This document shows positions 32,650 to 52,320 of a DNA stretch of 64,000 nucleotides, one piece after another. Location: the NCBI RefSeq assembly GCF_007197735.1, contig NZ_CP041637.1, forward strand, positions 2,637,001 to 2,701,000, written 5' to 3'. Origin of the DNA: Formosa sediminum. Its GTDB lineage: Bacteria > Bacteroidota > Bacteroidia > Flavobacteriales > Flavobacteriaceae. The translations under genes were made by a program, and so were the position numbers. Each line of letters starts with the position of its first letter. Positions within the stretch are counted from its first letter, which is position 1. The notes beneath the pieces are model-generated. The model searched no databases. It was not told the DNA's origin and saw only the letters and a list, made by a program, of their open reading frames with translations.

Positions 32650-34416
32650 TTAATTACTTACATACAACCTAGCCTCCCAAGGTTGTAGTTTGATTGTTTG
32701 TGAATCTATAGTTTGCAATTCTTCTGTGAGGTTACTTATTACTAAATTATAACCTTTGTATTGTTTATTAATTTTAAAATCTACTGTAGATCTGGACATA
32801 TTTAAAACGACTAAGTAAGTTTTGTTTTTCCCCGTTCTTGTATATGCAAAAATTTCAGGATGATTTATTGCGATATCATTATAGTCTCCATATATTAAAT
32901 TGTCGTTATTTTTTCGGATATCGAGTATTTTACGATAAAAATGAAAAATAGAATTTGAATCTGAAAGATTATGTTCTACATTAATTGCTTTAAAATTAGG
33001 GTTGATCCCAAGCCAAGTTGTGTTTCCAGAAGTGAAACCAGCTTGTTTTTGATCTGACCATTGCATAGGAGTACGTGCATGATCTCTAGCCATTTTATTT
33101 AAATCTTCTAAATAGGATTCTGGACTTTCTCCATTGGCTATAATTTTGTCGTAATTACCTTTAATTTCTACATCATCAAATTGATCAAAAGACGTAAACG
33201 GATAATTAGTCATCCCAATTTCATCTCCTTGATATAGAAATGCAGTACCTCGCTGAGTTAATAATAACATGGCTAATAATTTTGCAGATGGGATTCTATA
33301 TTCAGGAGTATCGTCTCCAAACTTACTTACAGCCCTTGGATTATCATGATTAGATAGAAAAAAAGTGGGCCAATTGTGGTAGCTAACATCACTTTGAGTT
33401 TTTACAAGTTTTTTAAATTCCGGTAAAGTCCAATCATTTTGTTTAAAGTTGTCTCTACCCACGCGCACGGCATCAAACCAAAAAGCGAGATCAATTTCAT
33501 TATTACGCTCATCAGTAATTTCCAATGTTTTTTCTGCGTTTCCCCCATAAGCTTCACCCACAGTCATGACATCATAATTAGAGAGCACTTCTTTATTCAT
33601 CTCTTTTAAAAATTCATTTAATCTTGGACCGTATGCGTATGTATATTCTGGATGTTTTAATCCTTCAACATCCATATCTTTAAAGTCTGTAGGTTTAGAA
33701 ATAAGAGCGATAACATCCATTCTAAAACCATCTACACCTTTATCTAGCCAAAATCTCATGAGATCATATACTTCAGCTCTTAGTTTAGGGTTTTCCCAAT
33801 TTAAATCAGGTTGTTTTTTAGCAAAGTAATGTAAATAATATTCGCCATCTGGACCTGCTTTTTCCCAAGCTGAACCACCAAAGAATGAAGTCCAATTGTT
33901 TGGTGGATTACCTTCTTTTCCCGGTTTCCAAATGTAATAATCCCTATATGGACTCTCTTTTGATGCCATACTTTCTTGAAACCATTTATGCTCATCACTT
34001 GAGTGATTAATCACTAAATCTATAATAAGTTTTATTCCACGTTCATGTAAACCATTTAGTAAAGTGTCAAAGTCTTCTATTGTGCCAAATTCTTTCATTA
34101 CTTTTCGATAATCTCGAATATCATAACCATTATCGGCATTTGGAGAATCAAAATGTGGACTTAGCCATACGACATCTATTCCCAATGCCTCCAGATAATC
34201 CAATTTTGAAATAATGCCAGGAATATCTCCGATACCATCTCCATCTGAATCTTTAAATGAACGTGGATAAATTTGATATACGACTGCTTCCTTCCACCAT
34301 TCTTTTTTTATAGTTTGAGTGGTCTCATTTTTTAAATTTGAGTGTTCTTTTTCGTTGTTTTGTTTACATCCTGTAATAAGAAAAAGCACACTAAGAATTA
34401 AAATTTTAAATTTCAT
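32650..34416 (-). CDS. GH13 alpha-glucosidase, lipoprotein
   Basis: This protein of about 588 residues starts at ATG 34416 (MKFKILILSVLFLITGCKQ), where LITGC is a lipobox. An ATG 8 codons upstream would spoil the signal. The mature protein is a GH13 alpha-amylase-superfamily enzyme of the alpha-glucosidase/oligo-1,6-glucosidase type: WWKEAVVYQIYPRSFKDSDG, VINHSSDEH, the nucleophile in GVDGFRMDVIALI, the acid/base in TVGEAYGG, and FFLSNHDNPRA. It should cleave terminal alpha-glucose from oligosaccharides at the cell envelope. The upstream gene encodes a GH65 enzyme, so the pair probably degrades alpha-glucosides. No SusC/SusD or regulator is adjacent. Confidence 0.9.
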   Translation of the reverse strand: MKFKILILSVLFLITGCKQNNEKEHSNLKNETTQTIKKEWWKEAVVYQIYPRSFKDSDGDGIGDIPGIISKLDYLEALGIDVVWLSPHFDSPNADNGYDIRDYRKVMKEFGTIEDFDTLLNGLHERGIKLIIDLVINHSSDEHKWFQESMASKESPYRDYYIWKPGKEGNPPNNWTSFFGGSAWEKAGPDGEYYLHYFAKKQPDLNWENPKLRAEVYDLMRFWLDKGVDGFRMDVIALISKPTDFKDMDVEGLKHPEYTYAYGPRLNEFLKEMNKEVLSNYDVMTVGEAYGGNAEKTLEITDERNNEIDLAFWFDAVRVGRDNFKQNDWTLPEFKKLVKTQSDVSYHNWPTFFLSNHDNPRAVSKFGDDTPEYRIPSAKLLAMLLLTQRGTAFLYQGDEIGMTNYPFTSFDQFDDVEIKGNYDKIIANGESPESYLEDLNKMARDHARTPMQWSDQKQAGFTSGNTTWLGINPNFKAINVEHNLSDSNSIFHFYRKILDIRKNNDNLIYGDYNDIAINHPEIFAYTRTGKNKTYLVVLNMSRSTVDFKINKQYKGYNLVISNLTEELQTIDSQTIKLQPWEARLYVSN

Positions 34417-34567
34417 ATTTATTGTTTTTTTGCTGTACATGTATGTTTAGTTATTTTATAATAAACTTTAAAATTCGTTGTAAAACGAATTATGTTATCG
34501 AGCACATTTTGTGATTAATATATAATTAGCCCTATACTATGTATGTTTTATATCTTTAAAAATACAA

Positions 34568-36604
34568 TTATTTTTCTATTTTAAACGTTTTACGTTCTAA
34601 TCCAACACCTTTTATTGTTAACGATTTCCAGTGTTTAGGAAGTATTGGGTTTTTCTGAATAATGCCTTGATCTGTAAATTCTAAACCTCCAAAACCAAAA
34701 ATTATACTTTGTAACAATCCCCCAGCACCAGTAGCAAAGTAAGATCTATTAGATGTAGTTGTTTCTGATAATGCTCCAAAAGGAGGTCGCATATTTGGTA
34801 TGTAACTGTCTTTAAATAATCTATAAGCATTATCAACATCACCTAGTCTAGCATATATAATTGAAAAAATAGACTTTCCCATAGCAGGACCATTTTTTGA
34901 TAATTTTGGTTCGTAATAAATTAAATCTTTTAATACATTTTCTTTATCTCTAACAATATTTAAAGGGTAGGAAAGTAGATTAGCATCTGCTTGTTTAATT
35001 ATTTCACCTTTATATTTTTCATGTTCTTTAGTCGTACCATCTGTAAGTTTCAAGATTTTTATATGCTCAGAGACTAATTTCCATTTAGGGTTAGGTGTTA
35101 TACCAATCTCAAGGGCTGCTTTAGTAGCGTATTCTAAAGCTGTGATAGCAGCACCATTAGTAAAAGCATTATCATTTACATTTGGTGCATATTCATTAGC
35201 GCCAACAACATTGTTTATAGAATAACTCCCATCATTATTTGCTTTAACTCGGCTAATCCAAAAATCTGCAATTTCTTTAAGTACTGGAAATCCTTTATCG
35301 GTTAGCCATTTTTTATCTTTAGTCACGCGATAATAATTCCAGAAAGCAATACCTATATCTGCTGTAATGTGATGCTCAAAAGGTCCAGTAAGTGCAAATG
35401 GAGGTGTAGCTTCTTCGCCTGTGTCATCACTTTCCCAAGGAAACATTGCACCTTTATAGCCATAGTTTATAGCTCTTTCTTTAGCTGCTTGTAAGCGATC
35501 AAATCTATAATTAACTAATGAACGTGCAATGTCTTGATTTAGCATAAGAAGCGGAGGAAACATCCAAAGTTCTGTATCCCAAAAAATATGTCCATTATAA
35601 GGAACTTGTAATGAAAGTCCCATGGGAGCAATACTTAAATCAGAATCTCCACGGCTAAAAGCGTACAAATGATATAATGCCAAGCGTGCATCTAGTTGAG
35701 ACTGTAAATCTCCTTCAATTATGATATCTCCTTGCCATAACTCATGCCATAGCGATTTATGCTGATCTAAAAGAACATCTTTAGGTGTTAGTAAATTATA
35801 AATTACCATTCTCTCTGATTCTGATTTGGGATCAGAAAAATTTTTACTTGTACATTCTGCACCTGTCCATGAAAAATTTAAGCTTTCATTTTTACTTATG
35901 GTCGTATTAAAAGATAAAGTGTTTTCATAATCTGATACAACATTATGGGTTAATTTAGGACGTAAGTTCTCATTTGTAGAATTTATATGATGCCAAATAA
36001 AAGTCCCGGAAGTACTTACATAATGCTTGTTGTGAGGGCTCATTGCTTTATTTTGCAATACTGGCATTGTAATGTCATTATCCTTTATAATTTCAAAAGT
36101 ATTTTCGGGAGTTTTAAATGTATTGGGTGTTAATATTTTACCGGTGACTTTTATATTGATATTTGATTTTGCTTGCACATTAAAATCTATATATGCCGAG
36201 TATTGCAAATTACGAAGTGCATACATTGTATAACTAATTTTAGCTTTGTTATTGTACTCAAAACTAGTAGTAAGCGCTGCATTTTTCATATCTAGGGTTT
36301 GCGACCAATTGGTTATATTTTTTTCAGATACTTTTTCATCATCAATGTACATCTCTAGATTTCCAAAATTCATGCCATGAAGAATTTGACTTACTTTATG
36401 TTTTGGATCTATATCATACACGTTATTTAATACAATATGTTTAATTTCAAAAGGTTTTGGAGAAGATAATAAACCAATTCTACCGTTAGCTATAGATATT
36501 CCTGTATAATCAGAATTTTCTGTAGCAGTTATATGCCATCCATCGTTTTGGGCACTGCCGTAAAAGACAAAGAAAAGGAGTATAAATTTGAGTAATTTTT
36601 TCAT
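34568..36604 (-). CDS. GH65 family glycoside hydrolase, secreted
   Basis: This 678-residue exported protein has a signal peptide (1-18, FVFYGSAQN). Domains in order are an N-terminal beta-sandwich (about 20-270), a short linker, and an (alpha/alpha)6 barrel with HIFWDTELWMFPPLL (about 340-354) and VVGANEYAPNVNDNAFTN, where the glutamate (about 468) is the general acid. The C-terminal AMGKSIFSIIYARLGD and a final small sheet fit GH65. The export signal and lack of an obvious phosphorylase Ser/His pair suggest a hydrolase and not a phosphorylase. A GH65 kojibiose hydrolase is known from Flavobacterium johnsoniae, so alpha-1,2-glucoside or trehalose cleavage is plausible. It is coupled functionally to the downstream GH13 gene (152-base gap). 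Confidence 0.85.
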   Translation of the reverse strand: MKKLLKFILLFFVFYGSAQNDGWHITATENSDYTGISIANGRIGLLSSPKPFEIKHIVLNNVYDIDPKHKVSQILHGMNFGNLEMYIDDEKVSEKNITNWSQTLDMKNAALTTSFEYNNKAKISYTMYALRNLQYSAYIDFNVQAKSNINIKVTGKILTPNTFKTPENTFEIIKDNDITMPVLQNKAMSPHNKHYVSTSGTFIWHHINSTNENLRPKLTHNVVSDYENTLSFNTTISKNESLNFSWTGAECTSKNFSDPKSESERMVIYNLLTPKDVLLDQHKSLWHELWQGDIIIEGDLQSQLDARLALYHLYAFSRGDSDLSIAPMGLSLQVPYNGHIFWDTELWMFPPLLMLNQDIARSLVNYRFDRLQAAKERAINYGYKGAMFPWESDDTGEEATPPFALTGPFEHHITADIGIAFWNYYRVTKDKKWLTDKGFPVLKEIADFWISRVKANNDGSYSINNVVGANEYAPNVNDNAFTNGAAITALEYATKAALEIGITPNPKWKLVSEHIKILKLTDGTTKEHEKYKGEIIKQADANLLSYPLNIVRDKENVLKDLIYYEPKLSKNGPAMGKSIFSIIYARLGDVDNAYRLFKDSYIPNMRPPFGALSETTTSNRSYFATGAGGLLQSIIFGFGGLEFTDQGIIQKNPILPKHWKSLTIKGVGLERKTFKIEK

Positions 36605-39928: not shown

Positions 39929-40948
39929 TTATGGTGTGATGAAGGTTTCGTCGCTTAAAGTATTTAAAAATGAAATTAAATTGTTTTTTTCTGTTTCTGT
40001 AAGCGGAATGCGATTATTGTTTGCTTTTAAAATAGGGTCTAAGTTGTCGGCATCTAAAACACCTGCATCTAAATAATCTAATACTTCCTTAAGTGTTTTA
40101 AACTGACCGAAACTTCCATAAGGCGCAGTGTAAGCAATGTTACGTAAAGAGGGAACACGAAAACTCATATAATCGTCTGTTTGTAAAGTTACTCGAGCAC
40201 GACCACCTTCTTCAGAATCTGGATTTAGAGGAAAACCAATGTTTCTAAAACTTTGATCTGTAAATAATTCTGTACTATGGCAACTTATACATTTGTCTTG
40301 AAATACGGCATAGCCTGCAGCTTCATCTGCTGTAAATGTTTCACCTTCATTGCGTTTTATCTTATCATATTTACTATTTGCAGAGATTAAGGTATACTCG
40401 TATTGAGCAATACTATTGTAAATATTATCGGCAGTAATACCTTCACCATTAAACGCTTTGTTAAACAGTTCTTCATAAGTGCCATCGGCTTCGAGTTTGG
40501 CTATAACTTCTAAAATAGACGAGTCCATTTCTTCATAAGTTATAATTGGTACTAGCGGTTGTTTTTCTAATTGAAGTTTACTTCCATCCCAATTGTAAAA
40601 ATTCATAAAAGCCATATTTTGTATAGGTGGAGGATTACGAAGTCCAATTCTACTTTCAATACCTATTGCTTTCTCGTTATGATCTGCAAAAGCATGTTCT
40701 TGCATATGGCAGTTTGCACAAGATATAGTATTATCTGTACTAAGCTTTTTTTCATGAAATAGTTTTTCTCCCAATGCTACACCATAGGTTGTTGGGACAT
40801 TGGTGTAAACTGCGCTGTTAAATTCGGGGAACCCAAATGGAATATTAAGAGTAATTTCTGGATTTATATAAGAAACAGGTTCAGATTGGTCCTCACTACA
40901 TCCAGATAAGATTAAGAGTAAAGCAATATTTCTTATAATGAGTTTCAT
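39929..40948 (-). CDS. MbnH/MauG-like diheme cytochrome c peroxidase, lipoprotein
   Basis: This 339-residue lipoprotein (lipobox LILSGC, cysteine 17) has two covalent haem sites, CANCH (77-81) and CISCH (220-224). A conserved NMAFMNFYNWDG segment (about 111-122) and the distal loop TAPYGSFGQFKTL complete the bacterial diheme peroxidase/MauG layout at the usual length. The next gene upstream encodes an MbnP protein. In methanotrophs the MauG-like enzyme MbnH oxidises a tryptophan of MbnP to kynurenine, so this gene is best read as the MbnH counterpart. A terminator hairpin lies between the two genes and would lower expression of this one relative to MbnP. Confidence 0.85.
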   Translation of the reverse strand: MKLIIRNIALLLILSGCSEDQSEPVSYINPEITLNIPFGFPEFNSAVYTNVPTTYGVALGEKLFHEKKLSTDNTISCANCHMQEHAFADHNEKAIGIESRIGLRNPPPIQNMAFMNFYNWDGSKLQLEKQPLVPIITYEEMDSSILEVIAKLEADGTYEELFNKAFNGEGITADNIYNSIAQYEYTLISANSKYDKIKRNEGETFTADEAAGYAVFQDKCISCHSTELFTDQSFRNIGFPLNPDSEEGGRARVTLQTDDYMSFRVPSLRNIAYTAPYGSFGQFKTLKEVLDYLDAGVLDADNLDPILKANNNRIPLTETEKNNLISFLNTLSDETFITP

Positions 40949-41023: not shown

Positions 41024-41887
41024 TTAGTTTTCTACTTCAATAATAGAGAACATTCCTGTAAGGTCTGTACTACCATTACCGCCAATATTATCTACAAATT
41101 TTTCCATTTCTGTAGCTGTATGTGCGCTTGGTGTAGCATTATTTGTAATATCGTCTGTAGTTACTAGTGTAATGGTATAACTGTTACCGCTTAATAAATA
41201 ATCAAAATCAGCTTCAATTTTAATTGTTGGTCCGTTACTTCCAACAATAGCTGTAGTTGGTAAGTCTAGTGTAATATCTCTATAAGCATCTACACCTTGT
41301 GTATAGCTACCTTCTTCACCTTCTACAGTGCTACCAGAATGGAACGATAGCTCTTTGTTATCGGCATCGTAAAAACCTTCAATTTTAGTAAAACGATATC
41401 CGGTTCCCCATTCCCAATGCATTTGAGTGTCGTTAGCTCCAGCAGTTGCATAAAATTCAGGGAAACTAACTTGGTCTAAAGTATTTAAATCAGATCTTAC
41501 ACCTAATCCAAACTTTATTTGGCTGTACTCATCTGTAGGAATATCACTTAATATATACTGTAATGTTTCTTCTTTAGATTGATCTATAACAGTTGCTCCA
41601 GTATCCAGATTGTTGGTGTTATATGGAATTTCTGTTCCATCTGTTTTAATTAAACGAATGTTACTAATAACATATTTTAATTCTTCAAAATGATGTTCTT
41701 GACCTGCGTCTGAAGTGTTCACAGTGGCTTCTGTAGAAGTCGCATCTCCTAACACTATTGTAGTTCCAGAAAATGTATTTGTAAATTCTAAAGTAACTTC
41801 GTTTGCCACAGGCATATCATCGTCACTACAAGAAACTAAAGCTAATAACGCTAAAGCAGATAGGGCATAAATTTTTAGATTTTTCAT
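41024..41887 (-). CDS. MbnP family copper-associated lipoprotein
   Basis: This 287-residue lipoprotein has the signal LALLALVSCSDDD (cysteine 20). The mature domain matches MbnP: VTLEFTNTFSGTTIVLGD, the histidine pair EHHFEELKYVISNIRLI (about 64-80), FGLGV at about 126-130, and the tryptophan-rich block MHWEWGTGYRFTKIEG (156-171). The partner MbnH-type enzyme is known to convert a tryptophan of MbnP to kynurenine, after which MbnP binds Cu(I). Here an MbnH-like gene lies just downstream and a copper-type TonB receptor just upstream (40-base gap). The exact tryptophan and copper ligands cannot be proved from sequence alone. Confidence 0.85.
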   Translation of the reverse strand: MKNLKIYALSALALLALVSCSDDDMPVANEVTLEFTNTFSGTTIVLGDATSTEATVNTSDAGQEHHFEELKYVISNIRLIKTDGTEIPYNTNNLDTGATVIDQSKEETLQYILSDIPTDEYSQIKFGLGVRSDLNTLDQVSFPEFYATAGANDTQMHWEWGTGYRFTKIEGFYDADNKELSFHSGSTVEGEEGSYTQGVDAYRDITLDLPTTAIVGSNGPTIKIEADFDYLLSGNSYTITLVTTDDITNNATPSAHTATEMEKFVDNIGGNGSTDLTGMFSIIEVEN

Positions 41888-41927: not shown

Positions 41928-43913
41928 TTATAAATTAATTTTTAAAGATGTAAATATATTACGTCCCATTCTTGGAATGTTTCCCCAATCTGCATACGTA
42001 CTGTAGTAAGTATCAAATACATTTTCTGCACCAACTTGTAAGATTGTTTTATTGTTTTTAATGTAAAACGTATAATCAGCAGAGACATTCCAATTGGTGT
42101 AAGACGAGGTTTCGTCTTCACCATATTCTGGACTGTAATCTATTTGTTTTAAATCGCCATTAAGGGATGTTGAGATTCCGACTTTCTGATATGAAAAATG
42201 TAAAGCCGTTTGGTAACTTAGTGGACGAATAAATGGTAAATTGTTTTTGTTTTCGTCTAAACCTCTTGCATATGTTACTGTGCCTTTCCAATGCAAATTT
42301 TGTAAAATACTATAATCTGCACTTAACGAAAAATTGAATAATGTAGCATGATCTAAAGAGGTGTAGCCTTTTACACCAACCGATTGGTAGTTCATGGGGC
42401 TTCCTGAACTTAAAATGCGACCAATAATATAATTTTTGATATAGAAATAGTTTACTTTGGCTTGAATACTTCCTTTTGTATGGGAAAAACCAGCACTAGC
42501 ATTACCTTCATAAGAGATTTCATTTTCTAAATCGGGATCGCCAATATAATCGTATCTATCAAAACTATTGTATATGTAGTAGCCATACCCTTCGGAAACA
42601 GAAGGTGCTCTATGACCATAACCACCACCAACAGATGCATTAAATCCGTCAATATTTAATTGATAGCCTGCATACAGATTTGGTAAAAAGCGGGTCTTTT
42701 CTTGAGAAGCACCTGGATGAAAAATGCGATTAAATTCTATGTATTTAGAATAATTATAATTTACTCCTAAAGTACCGCCAAAATTTAAGGTACTGCGGTC
42801 TGAGATATCCCAAGCATTACTCGTAGATAATCCAGCATAACGTGTGGTAACCCATGGCCAACTGTAAGCAAACATGGTTGTTTCGCTATAATCTTGCGGG
42901 TACATTCGCATTTCTGCAATAGCTAAATTATCGTAGGCATTTAATTGTATTTCTGAAGCGTAATTGTTATGTTTTATATTAATTTTAGACACCAAACCAT
43001 ATGTGGTACTCCAACCAGGCATATCCATATGCACCAAGTTTTCTGGGCGGGTAGTATCGTCCATATAATGTTCTATAGTATTAAAGTAGACTTTTGTATC
43101 CCAGACTTTAATGAGTTTGTTTTCAAAAAATTGCTTGTAAGCTACAGATGTAATTAATGCTCTAGATAGTGATAAATCCATTGGTAACGCAGGATACCCT
43201 ACATCTTCAGCCTTATCAAAAATGGCATCTACTCGTACAGATGATAAATCGCTTGTTTTATAGGCTATGCCTAAAGACGTATTGAATTTTGTAAACTGAG
43301 AATGTAAGACTTCATTACCATTTCCATCGGTATAATTTCCAGCATCTCTAAACGATATGCTTCCATCTGCAACCAGTTTATTACTCGTAAATGCTACATT
43401 TCCTAGGTTAAAAAACTGATTGTTATTAAATTCATAACCAGCTTGATACGCTCCGCTCCAGTTTTTATCAGGTGTAAATGCAGAACTTTTTCGTTTTAAA
43501 TCAATACTTCCTGCTACAGTTGCGCCATGTAAACTGCCTTCTTGTCCAGATTTAATATCAATTTCAGATAGATTATTACTTTCTATATAAGATGTTACTG
43601 GATCCATTTTATCTGTACAAGCACCAAACACATGCATACCATCTATAGTAACTGTAGAGCGTTCTGTACTCATGTTATTTAATAAGGGTTCCCATGCATA
43701 AGCACCACGTTTTATAAAACTAATGTTGTCAGACGAGGCTAAGAATTCATCTACAGTAACAGCCATTTTCATAGCGGTTTCTATTTTGTTTTTCTTTGCA
43801 GCAATTACCAGAACTTCATCTAAAACCACATCTGAACTGTCCCTAACAATGGGGGTGTTTTGTGCATTAGCTATACTTCCTAATATTAGTAAAATTAATG
43901 TAAGTTGTTTCAT
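41928..43913 (-). CDS. TonB-dependent receptor with OprC-type copper-binding residues
   Basis: This 661-residue outer-membrane receptor has a signal peptide (1-18), a plug domain (about 30-145) and a 22-strand barrel ending NIFTSLKINL with a terminal L. The plug contains FGACTDKMDPVTSYIE (96-111), in which C99 and M103 form CxxxM. The barrel contains IEHYMDDTTRP, in which H282 and M284 form HxM. In the structurally characterised copper importer OprC of Pseudomonas aeruginosa, CxxxM and HxM ligands 180 residues apart bind copper; the spacing here is 183. I therefore call it a copper importer of the OprC/NosA type. It is 4 bases downstream of the YtkA-like lipoprotein gene and upstream of MbnP. 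No SusD partner is present. Confidence 0.85.
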   Translation of the reverse strand: MKQLTLILLILGSIANAQNTPIVRDSSDVVLDEVLVIAAKKNKIETAMKMAVTVDEFLASSDNISFIKRGAYAWEPLLNNMSTERSTVTIDGMHVFGACTDKMDPVTSYIESNNLSEIDIKSGQEGSLHGATVAGSIDLKRKSSAFTPDKNWSGAYQAGYEFNNNQFFNLGNVAFTSNKLVADGSISFRDAGNYTDGNGNEVLHSQFTKFNTSLGIAYKTSDLSSVRVDAIFDKAEDVGYPALPMDLSLSRALITSVAYKQFFENKLIKVWDTKVYFNTIEHYMDDTTRPENLVHMDMPGWSTTYGLVSKINIKHNNYASEIQLNAYDNLAIAEMRMYPQDYSETTMFAYSWPWVTTRYAGLSTSNAWDISDRSTLNFGGTLGVNYNYSKYIEFNRIFHPGASQEKTRFLPNLYAGYQLNIDGFNASVGGGYGHRAPSVSEGYGYYIYNSFDRYDYIGDPDLENEISYEGNASAGFSHTKGSIQAKVNYFYIKNYIIGRILSSGSPMNYQSVGVKGYTSLDHATLFNFSLSADYSILQNLHWKGTVTYARGLDENKNNLPFIRPLSYQTALHFSYQKVGISTSLNGDLKQIDYSPEYGEDETSSYTNWNVSADYTFYIKNNKTILQVGAENVFDTYYSTYADWGNIPRMGRNIFTSLKINL

Positions 43914-43917
43914 TGCT

Positions 43918-44847
43918 TCAGAATAAAATATCTATATGTAGTTCGCTACGTTCGCCTTCTATTCCTGGTGTAAATTCTGTAGATACTTCTGTGCCTTTAA
44001 TCGTGTTTCCATCGGGATCCTGAAAAATAAAGTTTAGGGTCCATTCTCCTGTCATGGTATAATTTACAACACCATAATATAAACTATCGCTTGCTTGCGT
44101 TAAGTCTTGATTGTTGGGTGAAGAATGATTCCCCATTGAGGGTTCTGGCATTCTTGGGTCTAACAATAAGGTGTGATTTTTAACAATAGAATAGGAGTAT
44201 TGCGTTAAGTCCGGAAATGTTCCTGCTTCTTGTTCTGGTTTGTTGTATTTATAAATACCTGCAACCAATTCGTTTTCTGCTACACTTGGACTTTGGGGTG
44301 CGACTAAGGCAATAAAATATTGTTCGTCGTCATTACCAGTAAAAGCAGTCATATTAAGATTCATGTTTGTTTGCTCTTCAATTGTAATGGGTTGATTAAT
44401 AGCGTACGATTGAGAACTGTCTTGAAAATCTATATATAACTGCCAATTTACTGTGGTATCACTTTCGCTAGTAAAAACAGCATAACCTGAGTAATATTTT
44501 TCTGTTGCATTATACTCTAAAGTATATTGATGCGGACACGAGGTTTTATTACCATTGGCATCTGTTAGTATAGGTAAAAAGGTAACTTCAGAATCTTCTA
44601 AAACCGCACTGGTTTGGGTATCGGTAATTTTTAGATGAATTTCATTGTATCCTTTATATAGTGTACCATTTAAGGCTTCAATACGTATGGTGTAACCGTC
44701 ACTAGTCGTAGACGTTACTTCTTCATATTCAATATATTCTGTGGTGTCTGTGCTTAATTCCGCATCATAATCTGTTTTTTCAACAGTACAAGACGTAGCC
44801 ACACAAATAACACCTAGCGCCATTACAATATGTTGTAAAAGTTTCAT
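43918..44847 (-). CDS. Lipoprotein with two YtkA/FixH-like repeats
   Basis: This 309-residue lipoprotein (ICVATSC, cysteine 20) appears to contain two similar beta-sandwich units (about 50-142 and 172-300). The second carries DPRMPEPSMGNHSSPN (230-245) and YYGVVNYTMTGEWTLNFIF, the MPxMxxH plus Y-x-G-x-x-x-x-TMxGxW pattern of YtkA/FixH-type domains. The first has a weaker version with KTSCPHQY (about 101-108) and YYSGYAVFTSE then NWQLYIDF. The methionines M233 and M238 and histidine H241 are plausible copper ligands. The gene ends 4 bases before the TonB receptor and is therefore in the same operon. I infer a copper-binding outer-membrane lipoprotein. Confidence 0.7.
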   Translation of the reverse strand: MKLLQHIVMALGVICVATSCTVEKTDYDAELSTDTTEYIEYEEVTSTTSDGYTIRIEALNGTLYKGYNEIHLKITDTQTSAVLEDSEVTFLPILTDANGNKTSCPHQYTLEYNATEKYYSGYAVFTSESDTTVNWQLYIDFQDSSQSYAINQPITIEEQTNMNLNMTAFTGNDDEQYFIALVAPQSPSVAENELVAGIYKYNKPEQEAGTFPDLTQYSYSIVKNHTLLLDPRMPEPSMGNHSSPNNQDLTQASDSLYYGVVNYTMTGEWTLNFIFQDPDGNTIKGTEVSTEFTPGIEGERSELHIDILF

Positions 44848-44881
44848 AGGTTATGCTGTTTAATTATAAACGTTTATAAAG

Positions 44882-44968
44882 CGGTAAACGAGGCCATACA
44901 ATTCTTCTTTAAAAAATAATAAGAATGCACAATAGTTTTTATGCCATACCAATAGGCAAGGTTTACCG
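44882..44968 (-). promoter_or_regulatory. Hairpin-rich leader upstream of the copper-type operon
   Basis: An 8-bp outer stem (CGGTAAAC at 44882-44889, GTTTACCG at 44961-44968) encloses a smaller stem (ATTCTT and AAGAAT, about 44901-44926) and a short imperfect one over TTGCC...TGGCA. On the minus strand it ends 34 bases before the YtkA-like lipoprotein start. A separate inverted repeat (CTAAACAT 45090-45097, ATGTTTAG 45112-45119) lies further upstream, just past the small CNGTC gene. This could be an RNA leader that controls the operon, or a partial terminator; neither is shown. A 64-codon frame (44860-45054, minus) also crosses this gap, but I do not call it a gene. Confidence 0.4.
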
Positions 44969-45153
44969 TTTACGAGATGTGAGTAGAACGCACGCTTAAC
45001 ACAGGAGCCTAATTTGGAACGATTTTGTAATAGCAGCTCTGATACATAATACATTTAAATTTTAAAAATAAATGTATAATCAGTGACTACTAAACATATA
45101 TATTTAGTCCAATGTTTAGCCTAGAGTTTTGGTGTTTCTGAAGATGTTAATAA

Positions 45154-45522
45154 TTAAACGAGTGGTGGGTGAAATACAAAATCCATATATTGGAACTTGT
45201 AAATATTATGATAAGAAGTATCTATGTTTGAATTTTGTTCTTGTGGAATAAATAATGCAAAGTTGAATTTTGAATCTTGAAAAAAGACTAAAGAATTTTC
45301 GAAAGTTATAGAGCTACTTTTGTCATTATTTCCTTTTTCTGTATCTGAAGCTTTGGCTAATTGATCTTTTAGATGACAGGTTCCGTTACATTGTAATTCC
45401 GGTTCATCTTTATTAACACAGAGTTCATTTACAATATAATCGTAAAATGCAGCATATTCCACTAAAGGGATTAGTGGTTTTACCATTAGAAATAGCGCTA
45501 AAAATATACTTGCAGTTTTCAC
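45154..45522 (-). CDS. Small envelope protein with CNGTC motif
   Basis: This 122-residue protein has one N-terminal hydrophobic segment (about 3-22, possibly a signal peptide) and the cysteine-containing stretch NELCVNKDEPELQCNGTCHL followed by KDQLAKA (about 32-60). The C-terminus is acidic then hydrophobic, ending in FHPPLV. I recall similar C-x-G-x-C-x-L-K proteins next to metal-related TonB receptors in flavobacteria, although I know no assigned function. It is the first gene of the minus-strand group leading to the YtkA-like, TonB, MbnP and MbnH genes, 306 bases upstream of the next. Metal binding by the three cysteines and the histidine is plausible. Confidence 0.65.
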   Translation of the reverse strand: MKTASIFLALFLMVKPLIPLVEYAAFYDYIVNELCVNKDEPELQCNGTCHLKDQLAKASDTEKGNNDKSSSITFENSLVFFQDSKFNFALFIPQEQNSNIDTSYHNIYKFQYMDFVFHPPLV

Positions 45523-51618: not shown

Positions 51619-52320
51619 TCACATTAAAAATATAGCAACATAATACACACCTGTTAATATAAAAACGATACCCGCAGTTTTACGCATGATGTTCTCTATT
51701 TTAGTGATTTTGTTATAAAATAGTCCTAATTTTCCCGCTGTAAATGCCAAGAGATAGGTAAATATTATAACAGGTAATCCTGTGCCTAAAGCAAACACAA
51801 TGGGTAAAAATAATCCGTCTGAAGAAGTCATAGTCATAGGTATAAGTATACCAAAAAATAAAGCTCCGCTATAAGGGCAAAAGGCTAAAGCAAAGACTAG
51901 ACCAATTAGAAAAGCACCCCAAATGCCTTTATCTTTAAATTTAATAGAGAGTTGTTCCTGAACACTAGATTTTCCTAAAAAATTAAGTTTAATAATGTTT
52001 AACATAATTAATCCGATAACGATTAATAGCGGCCCTAAATATTTTTCGCCATTTTGATTGAAAAATCTTGCGATATGGAATTTACTGGCTCCAAAGTATA
52101 AGATTAATCCAATTGTAGTATAACTAAATCCTCTTCCTAAAGAATATGAGAGTCCGCTTATAAACACCTTTTTTTTACTAGCAATATTTTTAGATATAAA
52201 AGCAGTAGCGGTAATGTTAGTTGCTAGAGGACACGGACTAATGGCTGTCATTAGTCCGAGTATAAATGCCGATACTATAGGAATATTGTATTGCGAAATT
52301 AATGTTTGAAGTGCATCCAT
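51619..52320 (-). CDS. ArsG family organoarsenical efflux permease
   Basis: This 233-residue membrane protein of about six spans resembles CcdA/DsbD-type transporters. Two conserved cysteine motifs lie in the membrane: TAISPCPLATNITATAFISK (about 25-44) and FALAFCPYSGALFFGILIP (about 143-161). This is the pattern of the ArsG family, described in Bacteroidota as an efflux permease for aromatic aminobenzyl arsenicals. It starts directly at the stop of the ArsF-like gene, with no gap. The substrate is inferred from family membership. Confidence 0.85.
   Translation of the reverse strand: MDALQTLISQYNIPIVSAFILGLMTAISPCPLATNITATAFISKNIASKKKVFISGLSYSLGRGFSYTTIGLILYFGASKFHIARFFNQNGEKYLGPLLIVIGLIMLNIIKLNFLGKSSVQEQLSIKFKDKGIWGAFLIGLVFALAFCPYSGALFFGILIPMTMTSSDGLFLPIVFALGTGLPVIIFTYLLAFTAGKLGLFYNKITKIENIMRKTAGIVFILTGVYYVAIFLM

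Follow-up and report, generated by a model that had tools for sequence, protein, structure and literature searches.

The window, the whole 64,000-nucleotide stretch analyzed from Formosa sediminum (assembly GCF_007197735.1, contig NZ_CP041637.1, positions 2,637,001-2,701,000, forward strand), contains five consecutive genes, all on the minus strand, running in the order leader-like gene, lipoprotein, receptor, MbnP-like protein and MbnH-like protein. The leader-like gene is separated from the lipoprotein gene by 306 nt, and the remaining intervals are 4 nt between lipoprotein and receptor, 40 nt between receptor and MbnP-like gene, and 75 nt between the MbnP-like and MbnH-like genes. The features are located as follows (window coordinates).

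45154..45522, minus strand: leader-like small, putatively exported protein 'hcx', 122 amino acids, first gene of the operon
45376..45390, minus strand: C45-N-G-T-C49 (CxxxC) of the leader-like protein
45163..45168, minus strand: P119-P120 (HPP-LV-stop) of the leader-like protein, putative stalling motif
44848..45153, minus strand: leader-lipoprotein gap of 306 nt, candidate attenuation region, with the A/T palindrome GTTTATAATTAAAC within it
43918..44847, minus strand: lipoprotein, putative copper-binding partner, with a YtkA-like C-terminal region and the motif DPRMPEPSMGNHSSPNN
41928..43913, minus strand: OprC-type TonB-dependent receptor, 661 amino acids, assigned from homology, ligands, fold and tree
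43605..43619, minus strand: C99-x-x-x-M103, plug half of the predicted copper site
43062..43070, minus strand: H282-x-M284, barrel half of the predicted copper site
41024..41887, minus strand: MbnP-like lipoprotein (Pfam MbnP), with W158-E-W160 at nt 41408-41416
39929..40948, minus strand: MbnH-like di-haem protein of the MauG/cytochrome c peroxidase family (Pfam CCP_MauG), with CxxCH at residues 77 and 220

Downstream of the operon, at window positions 32650-36604, two genes resemble, on inspection by eye, those of an alpha-amylase and another glycoside hydrolase and appear unrelated to it. At 51619-52320 a membrane protein with an ISPCPL motif resembles, also by eye, the CcdA/DsbD group.

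Relatives of the receptor are present in 59 of the 151 genomes of the family that were searched and fall into three bands of identity, termed class I (60-81%), class II (36-44%) and class III (22-30%). A class-wide search scored four candidates per genome and underestimates receptor frequency, so no rate is taken from it. One class II locus of flavobacterial type (L145, CALPUN020000002.1) lies in a metagenome-assembled genome labelled Bifidobacterium breve, which is probably mislabelled or contaminated.

The receptor has a single cysteine (C99), a single CxxxM motif (residues 99-103) and a single HxM motif (residues 282-284). The original prediction had read C99, M103, H282 and M284, with 183 residues from cysteine to histidine, as the ligand set of OprC, and all four residues and the spacing are exactly as it gave them. 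In OprC of Pseudomonas aeruginosa copper is bound by C143 and M147 in the plug and by H323 and M325 in the barrel (PMC8610252), a cysteine-to-histidine distance of 180 residues. A phmmer comparison of the receptor with all PDB chains returns only OprC entries at E ≤0.01, with values down to 1e-8, and the resulting alignment places C99, M103, H282 and M284 one to one onto C143, M147, H323 and M325. Because OprC is the sole sequence relative in the PDB and all four ligands are aligned, the resemblance is one of homology and not of chance spacing, and the match to the OprC set proposed at the outset stands.

Conservation was examined in 41 homologues found via whole-protein similarity, drawn from classes I, II and III and extending to ~22% identity. 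Variation of the ligands among relatives was looked for and none is seen, the cysteine, both methionines and the histidine being invariant in 41/41 sequences from all three classes. The complete set is likewise found in 80/80 loci of a second collection, assembled from named genomes (the closest being Formosa algae, 89%), for which the HxM half alone is an independent test because part of the CxxxM motif was included in the search pattern. OprC-type receptors of Pandoraea, Thioclava, Acetobacter, Azospirillum and Novosphingobium also carry it.

The AlphaFold2 model of the receptor, calculated from 52 sequences, has a mean pLDDT of 82 and a pTM of 0.81, with pLDDT values of ~50 at residues 101-110, which form the ligand loop, and ~70 at residues 281-290. 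A Foldseek search places OprC chains as the top 28 PDB fold matches (E 9e-35 to 1e-30, TM 0.80-0.82), with PhuR and ZnuD following. The receptor and OprC share the TonB-receptor fold and the plug CxxxM and barrel HxM at aligned positions (PDB codes 6FOK and 6Z8Q; PMC8610252); the Formosa receptor differs in being shorter, in its low identity to OprC (~18% in the structural alignment) and in lying in an operon with a lipoprotein and MbnP/MbnH. Its best NCBIfam match is TonB-copper (TIGR01778, 3e-25), with the haemoglobin/transferrin subfamily TonB-hemlactrns scoring nearly as well. The score of 89 bits is far beneath the TIGR01778 equivalog cut-off of 472, and the protein is therefore named OprC-type rather than a member of TIGR01778. 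In the maximum-likelihood tree the class I receptors are monophyletic (100/100) and lie inside class II, and class III groups with three proteobacterial OprC-type sequences (86/81), the deeper joins being unsure with long branches; OprC-type receptors as a whole are separate from the other receptor types sampled. The CxxxM-HxM motif has been published for a flavobacterial TonB receptor from Bizionia argentinensis (G2EC70, 21.8% identity to OprC; PMC11213822), so the motif itself is not new. For the Bizionia receptor the neighbours given are ccoG, a P-type ATPase and nosL, and no MbnP/MbnH pair is reported there (PMC11213822), unlike in the Formosa operon.

The lipoprotein encoded immediately upstream of the receptor is a Met/His protein whose C-terminal region matches Pfam PF13115 (YtkA-like) with an E value of 0.0016, under the gathering score, and which carries the motif DPRMPEPSMGNHSSPNN at residues ~230-246. 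The segment DPRMPxMGNHSSPNN is near-invariant between classes I and II; a Met/His cluster (e.g. HMTEMMHSCP) is present in class II and missing from class I.

The MbnP-like protein scores 117.8 bits against Pfam MbnP (PF20243; cut-off 27) and 56 bits against NCBIfam TIGR04052, under the equivalog cut-off of 140, and it is consequently assigned to the Pfam family only. It contains the WxW motif as W158-E-W160, and the surrounding WEWGTGYRF is invariant among eight class I members. The adjoining gene product scores 162.7 bits against Pfam CCP_MauG and has two CxxCH motifs; its best NCBIfam match is TIGR04039 (MbnH) at 196 bits, below the equivalog cut-off of 363, and it is for this reason called MbnH-like. 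MbnP is found downstream of the receptor in 57/80 loci, nearly always with MbnH; class I has MbnP, and class II loci are without it. The neighbours had been expected to be copper-handling proteins, and the assignment of the two downstream genes to the MbnP and MbnH families by Pfam and NCBIfam agrees with this. Within these families, MbnH converts a tryptophan of MbnP to kynurenine, creating a copper site. The arrangement resembles that of methanobactin operons in having an adjacent pair, conserved tryptophan residues in MbnP, a MauG-like di-haem partner and a TonB receptor near by (PMC3621798), and differs in the OprC-type receptor and in both proteins falling below the NCBIfam equivalog cut-offs. 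The MbnP/MbnH pair is conserved well outside methanobactin producers (PMC3621798).

The product of the first gene has a hydrophobic N terminus (19-residue mean of 2.05) and no convincing match to a Pfam or NCBIfam model. The family alignment contains seven invariant columns, C35, C45, G47, C49, L51, P119 and P120. CxGxC is present in 203/204 distinct homologues, and a PP pair lies within the last 12 residues in 196/204, compared with 0.5-1.6% of other ORFs. The Cys motif and the PP pair are separated by 66.5 residues with a standard deviation of only 2.1 over these 204 homologues, across a stretch that is not conserved. To guard against a bias introduced by the profile, loci fetched via the receptor were scanned with an HMM that lacks the C-terminal half; PP falls within the last 15 residues in 137 of its 141 matches. 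Of the four exceptions, two carry a longer tail after PP, and the other two are short ORFs ending near the Cys motif.

These properties are close to those of two known copper-linked leaders. CruR of Bordetella, a DUF2946 protein with CXXC and with RAPP three residues from its end, precedes the receptor gene bfrG and mediates a Rho-dependent shut-off by copper (PMC9426467), and in Proteobacteria DUF2946 leaders are located ahead of OprC-type receptors and of MbnPH genes (PMC9426467, PMC9973294), as they are in loci L240, L243 and L244 here. Like the CruR-BfrG operon (PMC9426467), the Formosa TonB receptor operon is headed by a small, putatively exported protein that has a Cys motif and ends in PP, with a long gap before the next gene and a bias of C over G ahead of the stop codon. 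In the leader genes of the present family C clearly outweighs G over the last 120 nt (C 0.21-0.31, G 0.13-0.15), and in control gene ends G equals or exceeds C; the bias is partly due to amino acid composition and may hint at a Rho site. Membership of the DUF2946/CruR family itself was considered and rejected. There is no Pfam match to DUF2946 (PF11162), an hhalign comparison with five leaders taken from plasmid records gives a probability of 0.3%, and the motifs are CxGxC (a CxxxC) and xPP spaced by ~66 residues compared with CXXC and RAPP spaced by 45. DUF2946 gives no match in the F. sediminum genome and is near-absent from Bacteroidia (2/247 genomes).

CutF of Rhodobacter capsulatus promotes, with copper, translation of the next gene through an mRNA stem-loop, and rule-based selection has picked many CutF-like proteins in Bacteroidota (PMC9973294). 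Under the operational rules for such proteins, the Formosa leader has 122 amino acids (<150), C45-C49, P119-P120 (PP ≤15 residues from the end) and a same-strand next gene 306 nt away (≤1000 nt). CutF-like proteins share with it the CxxxC motif, a Pro-rich C terminus, a length below 150 amino acids and a position upstream of copper genes; CutF differs in its spacing of 45 and in controlling an oxidase and not an importer (PMC9973294). According to a 2024 study, experimental proof of ribosome arrest is still due for both CruR and CutF (PMC10987492).

The gap between leader and lipoprotein shows no intrinsic terminator downstream of the leader and no Rfam family. It folds slightly better than shuffled sequences (z -1.84) and, except at its end, aligns poorly among relatives (45% mean identity), which leaves a mechanism based on RNA structure without support. 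At window positions 44848-44880, directly before the lipoprotein gene, is the short conserved A/T palindrome GTTTATAATTAAAC, which is similar in relatives and is possibly a regulator site or a second promoter.

The leader-like family occurs in 132/247 Bacteroidia genomes, approximately half, and a member lies upstream of the OprC-type receptor in 75/80 loci. Among 64 loci fetched by the leader alone, a same-strand gene follows in 62, and MbnP or MbnH is encoded within five ORFs after the leader in 30. The very next gene encodes MbnP in 15 of the 62 and TonB-receptor domains in 10. A second leader-like copy is placed directly 3' of the receptor gene and before MbnP in 23/80 loci, and in other genomes leader-MbnP-MbnH stands alone with no receptor nearby. 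From these two observations we infer that class I arose by fusion of a leader-lipoprotein-receptor module, the form seen in class II, with a leader-MbnP-MbnH module, the second leader having been lost in the lineage of the window.

A second type of TonB receptor is found behind the leader in seven loci (L181:5576-7711, L185:2148-4313, L201:1964-4276, L207:4399-6765, L217:4483-6774, L234:2107-4473 and L238:1809-4217). CxxxM is missing from it, and its conserved motifs are NEQHxMxIRQP, which puts an HxM into the plug, and FNHN. After this receptor, L181 and L185 encode a PepSY_TM protein, as the Bordetella bfrG operon does, and L201, L217 and L238 encode a BNR-repeat protein. This could be another copper receptor. 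In L187, L189, L197, L209, L214 and similar loci the leader adjoins proteins of ~300 amino acids without a Pfam match, followed in several by a protein of ~130 amino acids and MbnP/MbnH.

Taken from its sequence relationships, the receptor very likely transports copper, and it is likely that the operon as a whole serves copper acquisition through an OprC-type importer, MbnP/MbnH and a cis-acting leader. The receptor would import ionic copper over the outer membrane in the manner of OprC, with Cu(I) or Cu(II) caught between C99/M103 of the plug and H282/M284 of the barrel, and a TonB-driven movement of the plug would then give the periplasm access to this site. Copper may be bound, ahead of the receptor or after it, by the lipoprotein and the MbnP-like protein. 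In the latter, a tryptophan of the WEW motif is probably oxidized by the MbnH-like di-haem enzyme, which would build the copper site; the likelihood of this modification is somewhat better than even.

The original prediction of a copper importer, and not a siderophore or glycan receptor, is supported by homology, ligand conservation, the fold search and the neighbours, transport being the step that these suggest. Siderophore and glycan roles are rejected, as no solved structure is closer to the receptor than OprC and neither siderophore nor SusD-like genes are among its neighbours. Two other cargoes were weighed. Because MbnT-type receptors in methanobactin operons adjoin MbnP/MbnH pairs (PMC3621798), the receptor might import a copper-metallophore complex, such as a methanobactin-like chalkophore of its own or foreign origin, with the C/M/H/M residues contacting the complexed metal; we consider this improbable, since the receptor retains every ligand with which OprC holds naked copper, none of the ORFs between 34 and 52 kb of the window is recognized as a methanobactin biosynthesis gene, and MbnP/MbnH and leader-like genes also occur without a nearby receptor. 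A still smaller likelihood attaches to a different cargo within the OprC fold group, either a soft metal such as silver or zinc or a haem-like ligand. That ZnuD, PhuR and haem receptors come next after OprC in the fold search and that the TonB-hemlactrns score is close to that of TonB-copper would fit such a cargo, but the invariant Cys/Met/His/Met set is typical of copper and not of zinc or haem, and the partner genes belong to copper-associated families.

For the first gene, comparative analysis moderately favours a copper-controlled leader. It would act in cis as a copper sensor, the exported nascent chain binding copper via the Cys motif and copper binding altering how ribosomes pause at the closing Pro-Pro; the importer would then be made under copper scarcity. 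Opposite effects of copper are reported for CruR and CutF, and the direction at the Formosa leader cannot be read from them; repression by copper is an evenly balanced expectation. Alternatively, the product could act as a finished protein, as an ordinary copper chaperone that is anchored in the membrane or resides in the periplasm, given that its Cys motif may bind copper, that the gene is conserved and that receptor-adjacent proteins of such size are often accessory factors. We find a chaperone rather unlikely, although less so than either of the other cargoes. Beyond the Cys region invariance is limited to the two end prolines, held at near-constant spacing over an unconserved stretch; the gene heads otherwise unrelated operons (MbnP/MbnH and two receptor types); the next gene begins only after a long gap (class I median 268 nt); and a second copy lies inside 23 operons, between the receptor gene and MbnP. 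The leader reading also has a wider form, which we put forward tentatively and with slightly less than even confidence: the first gene may represent a family of nascent-chain regulators that sense copper throughout Bacteroidota, built independently of DUF2946 with a Cys motif ~66 residues ahead of a terminal xPP, and that control copper acquisition by OprC-type receptors, MbnP/MbnH and the second receptor type, the window operon being two fused leader-headed modules.

What is new here is the leader-like family, which has no Pfam or NCBIfam model and heads MbnP/MbnH or receptor operons, together with the operon design, and both are of more interest than the receptor motif. Neither the leader-like gene nor the earlier publication of the motif in a flavobacterium figured in the original prediction. 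Copper acquisition and sensing in Bacteroidota are poorly known, and the locus supplies a concrete candidate importer with predicted ligands. It ties OprC-type receptors to MbnP/MbnH outside methanobactin producers, and it brings forward a small, testable leader family that is present in about half of the sampled Bacteroidia genomes and is described by neither Pfam nor NCBIfam.
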